Assembly: GCF_014647475.1 (NCBI RefSeq)
Contig: NZ_BMPG01000001.1
Location: 1,178,001-1,242,000, forward strand
Origin: Halocalculus aciditolerans
GTDB lineage: Archaea > Halobacteriota > Halobacteria > Halobacteriales > Halobacteriaceae
Direction of reading: 5' to 3'
Length of the DNA: 64,000 nt
The notes under the pieces are model-generated. The model searched no databases. It was not told the origin of the DNA and saw nothing but the letters and a program-made list of their open reading frames with translations. The translations under genes and the position numbers were made by a program. Below, one piece after another: positions 10,375-58,176 of this stretch. Position 1 is the stretch's first letter. Every line of letters starts with the position of its first letter.

Positions 10375-10394
10375 AGAGTGCGTTTCGTCTGTTC
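10375..10394 (-). repeat. orphan copy of the origin-type 17-nt core
   Basis: On the minus strand this reads GAACAGACGAAACGCACTCT. It differs at one base of 20 from the core at 58153-58172 beside the orc1 origin, 47 kb away. It sits in the short gap between two convergent genes. Unlike the origin copies, its flanks are not complementary. Confidence 0.6.
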
Positions 10395-54590: not shown

Positions 54591-54615
54591 ACCCGCCCGT
54601 CGGCGTTCGAGCGAT

Positions 54616-54684
54616 AAGTCCGTTCGGCATCCGGCGGCAAGTCCGTTCGGCATCCGGCGGCAAGTCCGTTCGGCATCCGGCGAC
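54616..54684. repeat. three tandem 23-bp repeats at the MBL-hydrolase promoter
   Basis: The unit AAGTCCGTTCGGCATCCGGCGGC occurs at 54616-54638, 54639-54661 and 54662-54684; the last copy has one substitution (GAC for GGC at the end). On the minus strand the first copy supplies most of the ACTTATC TATA-like box of the hydrolase gene, so the BRE/TATA region itself has been amplified. Confidence 0.85.
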
Positions 54685-54802: not shown

Positions 54803-54831
54803 GGGGAAACAAACGAAACGTACTCTCCCCC
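54803..54831 (+). repeat. origin-type repeat, distal copy (A)
   Basis: Core ACAAACGAAACGTACTC with complementary arms GGGG..A / T..CCCC, in a non-coding region upstream of the processive glycosyltransferase gene. The 17-nt core is shared with the copies near orc1, 3 kb away. Confidence 0.65.
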
Positions 54832-55057
54832 GGTGAACCCGCGTGAAACGCTCCGTACCGCTCACTACCTCTCGGGAGACGACGGCGGGAGCGCGTCGCC
54901 GAAGCGGGAGACGGACTCTGAGCAACGTGGAACGCTCAGTAGTGTGCGAGAGGACGAGAACGGCGAGTCGAAACAACGGGATCAGCGCCGGAACCCCGAC
55001 TTCAGTCCGGAGTCAGAACACTCTAAACGCATGCGAAATAACCGCCTCAATAGGTCT

Positions 55058-56389
55058 ATGGAGTCCACCACCCTTGACGGGCGTTCAACTTCGCTCCAGG
55101 CGGCCCTCCCATACGTTGGGTTCGGTGTGGCACTCGTCTGTGTCGTCTTCTTCCCGATGCTCTTCGACGCGAGCTACCCCCGGATCATCAACACGATCCT
55201 CCTCGTCGGAATCTGTGGGCTCGTGCTTCGAACTGCCGTATCCCCCCTCCTCTCGTTCGAGCACGCGGACCCACCGGTCTTAGAGGGTGACCGCCCCGAC
55301 GTGAGCGTGATCATCCCGGCTTACGACGAAGCCGCCGTTCTCGGGGATACCCTCGACGCGTGCCTCGACCTGGACTATCCGAACGAGAAGCTGGAGGTGA
55401 TCGTCTGCTACGAGGCGTCGTGTACCGACGAGACACCCGAGATCGCGGAGCGCGCTGCAGCGGAACACGACGTGATTCGGGCCGTGGAACGCGACGAACC
55501 CGGCGGGGGAAAGGCGGCGGCAGCGAACTACGCGCTGCAGTACGCCGAGGGGTCAGTGATTGCGAGTATCGACGCGGACCACCGGTTCGAACCGGACGCG
55601 CTCGACCGCGCGGTTCGATGGTTCGACGACCCCGAGGTCTGGTGCGTGAAAGGCCGGTGCTACGGCGACAACCCCGACGAATCGATCGTCGCCCTGCTCG
55701 CCACCGTCGAGCGCCACGTCACGGAGAAGGCGGAGTTGTTCGCACGAGACGTGATGGACGGATTCACGATCTTCGGCGGCGGCCAGGCGTTCTTCCGGCA
55801 CGACGTCTTCGACGAATTCGACGGATTCGACGAAGAGATCCTCGTCGAGGATATCGATATGACCTCCCGAATCCACGAGTTCGGGAAGGAGATTCGCGTC
55901 GACCCCTCGATTATCACCTACGAGGAACACCCCACGTCGCTCCGAGGGCTCTGGCATCAGCGGCTCCGGTGGACGCGCGGGTGGATGCAGGTCGCCCGCC
56001 GCTACCTCCGGACGTTCCCGTTCCAGCACGGTGTCTCCTCCCGGAAGAAGGCCGACGCCATCTACACGTACACGTACGCGATTGCGCCCGCGTTCTTCGT
56101 TCTGGGCGCTCCACTGACCGTGCTCCACTGGAGTTCGACGTTCCACGCACGAACGTACCTCCCGAACGATAGCGTCTTCTGGACGGCGTTCACGATTGTC
56201 CCGATTATGGCCGCGACACTCGTGTTCCTTCAGGACTGGCGTGACGGCCTCACCCACCATCGCTCCGAATATCTAGCGATGTTCGTGCTGCCGTTCTACT
56301 ACTCCGTTCAGTCAGTCCTCTTCTTCGTCGCCTTCGTTCAAGAGTTCGTCCTCGACCGTCCGAACGTATACGTGAAGACCGACCGGTGA
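55058..56389 (+). CDS. processive family 2 glycosyltransferase, hyaluronan/cellulose-synthase-like
   Basis: 443 aa from ATG 55058 (55031 possible). One N-terminal pair of helices (about 15-55), then the GT2 domain with VSVIIPAYDEAAVLGDTLDACL, SIDADHRFEPDA, EDIDMTSRIHEFG and the QRLRWTRGW (QxxRW) motif typical of processive enzymes, then three to four helices. It extrudes a polysaccharide across the membrane while polymerising it. It lies between two sets of origin-type repeats and next to orc1, not in the main glycan cluster. Confidence 0.82.
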   Translation: MESTTLDGRSTSLQAALPYVGFGVALVCVVFFPMLFDASYPRIINTILLVGICGLVLRTAVSPLLSFEHADPPVLEGDRPDVSVIIPAYDEAAVLGDTLDACLDLDYPNEKLEVIVCYEASCTDETPEIAERAAAEHDVIRAVERDEPGGGKAAAANYALQYAEGSVIASIDADHRFEPDALDRAVRWFDDPEVWCVKGRCYGDNPDESIVALLATVERHVTEKAELFARDVMDGFTIFGGGQAFFRHDVFDEFDGFDEEILVEDIDMTSRIHEFGKEIRVDPSIITYEEHPTSLRGLWHQRLRWTRGWMQVARRYLRTFPFQHGVSSRKKADAIYTYTYAIAPAFFVLGAPLTVLHWSSTFHARTYLPNDSVFWTAFTIVPIMAATLVFLQDWRDGLTHHRSEYLAMFVLPFYYSVQSVLFFVAFVQEFVLDRPNVYVKTDR

Positions 56390-56435
56390 GGGAGAGTGAA
56401 GGAGGATGAGGTGAGTCGGAGCGTTCGGGAGGTTG

Positions 56436-56456
56436 CGTCGCCTTCGAAAGGCGACG
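56436..56456. terminator. hairpin between convergent glycosyltransferase and orc1 genes
   Basis: Perfect 9-bp stem CGTCGCCTT/AAGGCGACG with a three-base loop, lying between two convergent genes. A bidirectional terminator or structured 3' end is likely. Confidence 0.5.
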
Positions 56457-56492
56457 TCGTCGAGATCGGAGTCTCAGCCGACGTCGAGGCGT

Positions 56493-57677
56493 TCAGGCGG
56501 CGTCGGCGCGGACGTCGAAGACGATGTCGGGTTCGAGACTGAGTTCGTACTCGAAGTAGATGCCGCCGGCGCGGCCGTCGTTCCGCTCGGTCTTCACGAG
56601 GAATCCGAGCATGGAGAGGTCGCTGAGGTGGTTCTGGATGCTCTTAAGCGTCGTGAGGGGTTCTTCGCCGTACTCGGTGGCGACGGTCTGGTAGACGTCC
56701 ATCGCGCGCTTCGAGCGAACGGGCGTCTCGCCGTCGGCTTCGAGGCGCGCGATCGCTTCCAGAACGAGTTGGCCGTGCATCGTCTGCTCCTCGATCTTGT
56801 CCCGGAGGCGGCCGCGCTGGGCGCGGTCGCGGCCGCGTTCGATGTGGGCCTCGGTGACGGTGCCGTCGCCGCCCTCTTCGGCGACTTCCGCGCCGGCGCG
56901 GAGGAGGTCGATGGCCTGTCGCGCGCTCCCGGAGTCCTTCGCCGCGTGCGCCGCGCACTTCGCGATGACCGCGGGCTCGTAGGCGTCGTCGATGAGCGCG
57001 AGGGTCGCGCGGTCCTCCAGAATCGTGCAGAGCTCCGTCGCGTCGTAGGTCGAGAAGGATATCTCGTGCTCCATCAACGAGTCTTTCACTTTCGCCGAGA
57101 GGCGCTGGCGGAAGCTGTAGTTGTTCGAGATACCGATGACGCCCACCCGGGCCTCGTCGAGGTGGCCGTTGGCGCGAGCGCGCGGGAGCTCGTAGAGGAC
57201 GTCGTTCGCGTCGTCGAGGTGGTCGATCTCGTCGAGGACGATGAGGTGCGTGCCGCCGATTCGGTCCATCTCCTGATAGAGCTCGGCGAACGCGTCGCTC
57301 AGCCCGAGGCCGCGCTTCGGGAACTCGCGGTCGTCGTCGGGGTAGAGCTGGTTCACGAGCGCGCGAACCGCCGCGAACGCGCTGTCCCCGTTGCAGTTGT
57401 GGTTGTGCACGTAGAGTTCGTCCGCCTCCTCCCGCGTCGCGACCTCGTCCTGGAGCGCGTCGAGCATGTACTTCGTCACCGCCGTCTTCCCGACGCCGGC
57501 TTTCCCGTAGAGGAAGACGTTCTTCGGGTTCCGGCCGAAGAGCACGTCCGTGAGCGCGTTCCGGAACTGGTCGATTTCGTCGTTCCGCTCGAGGATGGTG
57601 TCCGGTTGGTACTCCTCCGACAGCGCGTCCTTGTTCGCGAAGAGAGTGTCGTCGATATCCGCAAAGGGTCCTCCCAT
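56493..57677 (-). CDS. orc1: Orc1/Cdc6 replication initiator
   Basis: 394 aa. AAA+ domain: RNDEIDQFRNALTDVLFGR, Walker A GKAGVGKT (58-65), Walker B LIVLDEIDHL (145-154), sensor 1 VIGISNN, sensor 2 SGSARQAIDLLRAG. C-terminal winged helix (about 310-394, TTLKSIQNHLSDLSMLGFL). It binds origin repeats, melts DNA and loads MCM. The adjacent AT-rich tract with repeated cores (57724-58176) is its likely origin. ATG 57677 lies just after a TTTTAAGTA promoter on the same strand. Confidence 0.92.
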   Translation of the reverse strand: MGGPFADIDDTLFANKDALSEEYQPDTILERNDEIDQFRNALTDVLFGRNPKNVFLYGKAGVGKTAVTKYMLDALQDEVATREEADELYVHNHNCNGDSAFAAVRALVNQLYPDDDREFPKRGLGLSDAFAELYQEMDRIGGTHLIVLDEIDHLDDANDVLYELPRARANGHLDEARVGVIGISNNYSFRQRLSAKVKDSLMEHEISFSTYDATELCTILEDRATLALIDDAYEPAVIAKCAAHAAKDSGSARQAIDLLRAGAEVAEEGGDGTVTEAHIERGRDRAQRGRLRDKIEEQTMHGQLVLEAIARLEADGETPVRSKRAMDVYQTVATEYGEEPLTTLKSIQNHLSDLSMLGFLVKTERNDGRAGGIYFEYELSLEPDIVFDVRADAA

Positions 57678-57740
57678 TGAGAGTCTGTAGAGGACGCCGC
57701 GCCACGGATACTTAAAACCTCTCTTCGTCTGTTACGTCTG

Positions 57741-57840
57741 TTCTACTCTACTAGCTAGAGTTTATACGTACTAGCTAGAGAGAGTGAGAGTACGTTTCGT
57801 CTGTAACTCGATAGAGAACTAGGGGTAGGAGAACTAGGAC
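57741..57840. other. candidate DNA-unwinding element with CTAG-bearing direct repeats
   Basis: AT-rich for this genome. TACTAGCTAGAG occurs at 57749-57760 and 57769-57780 (20-bp period), and GAGAACTAGG at 57814-57823 and 57829-57838. The rarely used tetranucleotide CTAG occurs four or more times. It lies next to the initiator gene and inside the repeat cluster. Confidence 0.55.
57782..57809 (-). repeat. origin repeat copy B, inverted
   Basis: On the minus strand ACAGACGAAACGTACTC with flanks GAGT/ACTC complementary over 4 bp. Opposite orientation to the other copies in the origin. Confidence 0.7.
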
Positions 57841-57882
57841 GCGAATTGCTGGGACCGATAGATTTATTCTATGCGCAGGTTC

Positions 57883-57911
57883 GTCGGAACAGGCGAAACG
57901 TACTCTCCGAC
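57883..57911 (+). repeat. origin repeat copy C
   Basis: Core ACAGGCGAAACGTACTC flanked by perfectly complementary arms GTCGGA (57883-57888) and TCCGAC (57906-57911). Confidence 0.75.
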
Positions 57912-58078
57912 ACGCGGATCCACACCGAATTCTACGGCCCAGGCTTCACCGCGCAGTTTTCGTTCGATGGTCCGGCTCGCTCTCTCGGTCACTCTCTCGG
58001 CTCAACGTCGACGGCGTCGACAGCGCCGGGGTCGTTTTGTCCGCTGATTGACCGTCCTCTCCTCCCCCTCCTCTGTCG

Positions 58079-58107
58079 CAGAGAACAGACGAAATGTACT
58101 CTCTCTG
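58079..58107 (+). repeat. origin repeat copy D
   Basis: Core ACAGACGAAATGTACTC flanked by complementary arms CAGAGA (58079-58084) and TCTCTG (58102-58107). Confidence 0.75.
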
Positions 58108-58147
58108 TGTTCTTGCTCTCTCGTACTTCCCCACCCCGCCTTCGTCG

Positions 58148-58176
58148 CGGAGAACAGACGAAACGTACTCTCTCTG
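58148..58176 (+). repeat. origin repeat copy E
   Basis: Core ACAGACGAAACGTACTC flanked by arms CGGAGA (58148-58153) and TCTCTG (58171-58176), complementary with one G-T pair. The spacing from copy D is 69 bp, and both share the preceding GTCGC element. Confidence 0.75.

Follow-up and report, generated by a model that had tools for sequence, protein, structure and literature searches.

The repeats that surround the orc1 gene in the window (the whole stretch of Halocalculus aciditolerans DNA analyzed here, 64,000 nucleotides in length) are very likely variants of origin recognition boxes (ORBs), bound as duplex DNA by the Orc1/Cdc6 initiator whose gene lies among them, and together with that gene they would constitute an orc-linked replication origin module. 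By its core, its position, and its pairing with the adjacent Orc, the repeat is ORB-like on sequence grounds, with the haloarchaeal G-string replaced by a pyrimidine tract. ORBs as a kind are known; what is unusual here, as judged by comparison of the repeats and their Orcs, is an ORB tail that lacks the G-string and goes with a particular residue of the Orc. The first-pass annotation had pointed to complementary arms flanking each copy as the unusual feature; it is instead the missing G-string that sets the element apart. The 17-nt core, ACAGACGAAACGTACTC, has five copies around orc1, each with 0–1 mismatch, and the features of the window are as follows.

10376–10392, minus strand: isolated copy, ACAGACGAAACGCACTC, 1 mismatch, directly after a stop codon
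54809–54825, plus strand: ORB-like repeat, 1 mismatch, on the downstream side of orc1 past a glycosyltransferase gene
56493–57677, minus strand: orc1/cdc6-family initiator gene (from Pfam domains and solved relatives), 394 aa, full length, predicted cognate of the repeats
57312–57314, minus strand: Arg122 codon, in the putative initiator-specific motif EFPKRGLG; this residue separates pyrimidine-tail from G-string Orcs
57720–57819, no strand: AT-rich tract, GC 0.40–0.42 against ~0.65 around it, between orc1 and the inverted repeat pair
57724–57741, minus strand: two partial copies, ACAGACGAA and ACAGACGT, matching the repeat's left half, read from the sequence
57788–57804, minus strand: ORB-like repeat, exact core, directed toward orc1
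57889–57905, plus strand: ORB-like repeat, 1 mismatch, directed away from orc1
58085–58101, plus strand: ORB-like repeat, 1 mismatch, C to T at core position 11
58154–58170, plus strand: ORB-like repeat, core without mismatch, almost a duplicate of the copy at 58085

The window contained 6 matches to the core at no more than 3 mismatches, compared with 0.17 in dinucleotide shuffles of the window. In the 3.38-Mb genome, 8 places in all were found at no more than 2 mismatches; five are the orc1 cluster, and the two that lie beyond the six window copies reach 2 mismatches, about what is expected by chance. The five repeats near orc1 were thus present where the first-pass annotation had put them and far above chance, and the starts it gave (54803, 57782, 57883, 58079, and 58148) equal the core starts minus a 6-nt arm. 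Its copy list was correct for these five and overlooked the sixth near-copy at 10376–10392(−), which is 46 kb distant and lacks the conserved tail. The core was not invariant, as had been stated: two copies are exact and three carry one change, the C to T at position 11 being the most frequent natural core variant. Chance occurrence of the 10376–10392(−) copy genome-wide is unlikely.

The Orc1 protein has the AAA+ domain, Cdc6 lid, and C-terminal winged helix of an Orc1/Cdc6 initiator (Pfam AAA, Cdc6_lid, and Cdc6_C), and its best solved relatives are 2QBY_A and 2V1U_A. Several of the repeat copies adjoin the gene, as is expected of ORBs. The 57788(−) and 57889(+) copies form an inverted pair 84 bp apart, and the most AT-rich stretch sits between this pair and orc1; the 54809 copy is the only repeat downstream. 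An AT-rich tract next to orc1 had been proposed and was found at 57720–57819, where it is a candidate unwinding element and/or orc1 promoter.

The same association was found across the order, where the conserved element is 5′-RA-ACAGACGAAAYGTACTC-TCTCTCT-3′, flanking orthologous orc genes. Of the 394 genomes of the order, 44 have the core without mismatch (C and T both being accepted at position 11) and 69 have a close Orc orthologue; the core occurred in 29 of the 69 genomes with the orthologue and in 15 of the 325 others (Fisher p ~1e-14). Around 68 full-length Orcs, 61 Orc-bearing loci with at least one repeat copy were identified. At these loci 204 of 225 copies were directed away from orc (131/144 upstream and 73/81 downstream), at a median distance from the gene of 296 bp upstream and 194 bp downstream. 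This linkage across the order, and a core shared with ORBs, give good support to the proposal that the element is of origin type and belongs with orc1. A scan of genome contigs with the Orc protein returned a single locus, which was irrelevant.

Because mutually complementary arms had been reported for each copy, differing between copies, the first-pass annotation considered a plain double-stranded ORB site unlikely and favored a hairpin under selection, in which the arms would form a cruciform or an RNA stem-loop displaying the 17-nt core as its loop. The window itself offers some evidence of this kind. The arms GTCGGA/TCCGAC (57889) and CAGAGA/TCTCTG (58085) pair perfectly over 6 bp, CGGAGA/TCTCTG (58154) contains one G:T, and GGGGA/TCCCC (54809, 5 bp) and GAGT/ACTC (57788) pair only in a shifted register; a run of 4 arm pairs was reached in all five copies. 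The 58085 and 58154 copies are near-duplicates, so their arms are not independent, and the pairing in the window genome alone was mildly above shuffles (p 0.02–0.04, with n = 5 and selection post hoc).

The relatives provided 261 distinct copies at no more than 2 mismatches and 165 at no more than 1, which were compared with shuffled arms. The 165 copies averaged 2.32 Watson–Crick pairs of 6 against 2.36 in the shuffles, showing no excess, and 10 of them had runs of at least 5 pairs against 8 in the shuffles. Pairing in same-family genomes was likewise no higher than expected (1.57 observed, 1.71 shuffled), and in the closest relative the arms were paired in 1 of 4 copies. Among the copies with up to 2 mismatches, runs of at least 4 pairs numbered 62 against 50 shuffled (p 0.018), with no rise in mean pairing. 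Folding of the copies as DNA and as RNA gave z values of −1.2 to +1.0, inside the shuffled range; Rfam had no match for the repeats; and the copies occur in both orientations and mainly between genes. A hairpin origin element is therefore very improbable. The annotation had itself named loss of arm complementarity in relatives as the result on which the hairpin reading fails, and that loss is what was found: the arms are copy-specific and complementary in the window genome, and they do not covary beyond it.

The position-wise composition of the copies accounts for the base rate of arm similarity, because conserved purines (RRA) precede the core and pyrimidines (TCTCTCT) trail it. The complementary arms would then follow from flanks rich in purines on the left and in pyrimidines on the right, from chance, and from one local duplication. 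What is conserved is a longer motif of the double-strand type.

The identity of that motif is suggested by the other ORBs of this genome and of related Orcs. The core CAG..GAAACG is common to the repeat, to the oriC1 of the same genome (CCAGTTGAAACGAAGGGG), to the repeats of sister Orcs (ACAGACGAAACGAGGGG), and to the Hla_3512 ORB (TAACAGCGGAAACAGTGGGG). The window genome's own oriC1 repeat is CCAGTTGAAACGAAGGGGTG, present as inverted TTCCAGTTGAAACGAAGGGGTG and TTTCCACCCGAAACGAAGGGGTG (L216, 3681− and 3864+) with CA/GAAACG in common. Two more Orcs encoded in that genome each come with a distinct G-string repeat family (CTCAYTCCGAATCAGGGG and CATTCACACCGAGGGG). At the sister Orc loci the repeat is ACAGACGAAAYGAGGGGTGTG, the identical core followed by a classical haloarchaeal G-string. 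Since the core is shared with the sister-Orc and oriC1 ORBs, we infer that the repeat is an ORB variant in which pyrimidines have been swapped for the G-string: 3′ of the core, where haloarchaeal ORBs have the G-string, lies the pyrimidine tract TACTCTCTC.

The haloarchaeal G-string ORBs of oriC1, oriCa, and oriCb (PMC3528665, PMC3936714) resemble the element described here in their multiple copies flanking orc/cdc6, to some extent in an inverted pair near an AT-rich tract, in the core CA..GAAAY(G), and in family-specific pairing with the adjacent Orc; they differ in that this element has TACTCTCTC or a C/T tract after the core. G-strings are essential for Haloarcula hispanica oriC1 (PMC3936714) and are among the search features for predicting haloarchaeal origins (PMC3528665). 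The oriC2-cdc6E/oriC2D system of H. hispanica (PMC3936714) also has ORBs flanking its initiator gene on either side, and its extra copies have been proposed to titrate the initiator (PMC3936714); however, its Orc is different and its ORB G-rich, and the window has a single downstream copy (54809) past another gene. Sister Orc loci, among them L184, L188, L191, and L192, have the same core and layout and an Orc ~60–63% identical to that of the window, but a G-string tail and Thr in place of Arg/Lys at residue 122.

An explicit tail rule applied to 71 rows gave 59 with a pyrimidine tail (the window and 58 related rows), 11 with a G-string, and one mixed, which belongs to a distant Orc. On the maximum-likelihood Orc tree, taken without a direction of change, tail class changed 2 times, compared with 10.4 for shuffled labels. 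A few loci, such as L192, L193, and L176, mix the two tails, with a lone copy of the second type near the same Orc; these are possible intermediates in a tail switch. In the literature the matches listed for the exact core were unrelated; an earlier listing of the variant among the ORBs of PMC3528665 is possible.

Tail class coincided with the identity of Orc residue 122. All 59 pyrimidine-tail Orcs have R (45) or K (14) at this position, and all 11 G-string Orcs have T. In the alignment, residue 122 falls at T108 of Sulfolobus Cdc6-1 (2QBY_A, loop PFTGLS). A GL dipeptide has been mutated as the initiator-specific motif, which is reported to contact the G-track in the complex from A. pernix (PMC9738581); by this alignment R122 would belong to that motif. 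More distant G-string Orcs in which the residue could be read have T, Q, I, or S. Two distant K122 Orcs (L037 and L257) and an R122 Orc (L277) have pyrimidine or C tails, AACACTCGACATCTACTCTC and ACACTCCGATACCCCCTC, when the repeats are oriented by the core, an orientation made post hoc, the unoriented rule having given class G. Of the 43 extra loci, that unoriented automatic rule placed 20 in no class, and it misplaced these three R/K loci; at L276, a K locus, no clear repeats were seen. The correlation between residue 122 and the tail is partly phylogenetic, the R/K rows coming mostly from related lineages. A second discriminating column, D128, failed in deeper Orc families.

We propose tentatively, with confidence falling a little short of even, that R or K in place of the threonine before GL switches the preferred ORB flank of haloarchaeal Orc1 from the G-string to a pyrimidine tract. 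If this is true, a one-residue switch has given rise to a large, largely unrecognized class of origins that searches dependent on the G-string can miss. The G-string has been regarded as the hallmark of halophile ORBs, and ORBs with pyrimidines in its place, found for 59 related Orc rows, mean that origins can be missed. The same core with two tails and two Orc residues also provides natural pairs with which to test the role of the AAA+ motif in origin specificity, and the paired tail and Orc systems could be used for engineering non-interfering origins.

In the mechanism that we envisage, Orc1 would bind each copy as duplex, with its winged helix at the core and the initiator-specific motif of the AAA+ domain at the pyrimidine tail, R or K instead of T at residue 122 fitting that motif to the pyrimidine tract. 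The inverted pair 57788(−) and 57889(+), by the AT-rich tract, would be the initiating unit, where binding leads to unwinding and helicase loading, and the extra copies at 58085, 58154, and 54809 might serve in Orc1 loading or titration. The repeats are probably origin elements. GC skew across 220 kb had no inflection at orc1; activity on the chromosome is therefore putative, and the origin may be dormant. In a decayed or dormant origin Orc1 would still bind the repeats and the chromosome would not be initiated there, so that for binding it is a sub-case of the ORB reading. We regard dormancy as a serious possibility, although somewhat unlikely. Besides the absent skew signal, it would fit the documented dormant orc-linked origins with inverted ORBs of Haloferax mediterranei (PMC4595724) and the position of the orc gene and ORBs out of synteny with the closest relative, as in acquired modules; however, the Orc1 is full length with all its domains and the repeats are well conserved, and the orc–repeat pair is therefore under selection.

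The genes around the orc–repeat module share no order with those of the closest relative (L069, Orc 79% identical), so the module behaves as a mobile one, as other haloarchaeal origins have been described (PMC3528665). The glycosyltransferase gene is not beside orc in that relative, giving no co-conservation with the 54809 copy. Plasmids that carry the element include those of Halorussus aquaticus, of Haladaptatus sp. QDMS2, of Halocatena marina (with 12 copies, 11 of which are spaced at 56 bp), and of H. mediterranei (pHME132, where locus L234 is a related one with a pyrimidine tail). Viral contigs gave 5 matches, one isolated copy apiece, and no arrays.

Some copies are located where a regulatory site might be. 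If the repeats were sites for a transcription factor, or if the Orc acted as a transcriptional regulator only, there would be no origin; isolated copies near gene starts or ends (54809 and 10376), the copies that precede two similar HTH-type genes in G202:C4, and the regulation of transcription by the Orc1-2 paralogue in Saccharolobus (PMC9738581) are all consistent with this. We consider it improbable, because multi-copy arrays lie on both sides of orc across the 61 loci and because tail class tracks Orc phylogeny, as cognate ORBs should (PMC3528665). Counting against an origin module are arrays distant from any Orc, with 12 copies in G023:C1 and 7 in G239:C4.

The G023:C1 array (L068 3785–4274, at 701784–702273) is a tandem of 12 copies spaced 42–46 bp near a transposase-like gene, with the nearest Orc found lying ~44 kb away, and is possibly a titration array or an orphan origin. 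The seven copies in G239:C4 (L197 2631–3077), several of them spaced 58–59 bp, have no Orc within the 6 kb examined and lie beside genes resembling a VirB4-like ATPase and a phosphodiesterase. In G202:C4 (L198 2972 and 5000) the two HTH-type genes preceded by the core are near-identical, and an Orc site may have been co-opted there in a promoter. Within the window, a short tandem repeat of ~26 bp, AAGTCCGTTCGGCATCCGGCGGC, occupies 54612–54680 in the start region of a metallo-beta-lactamase-type gene.
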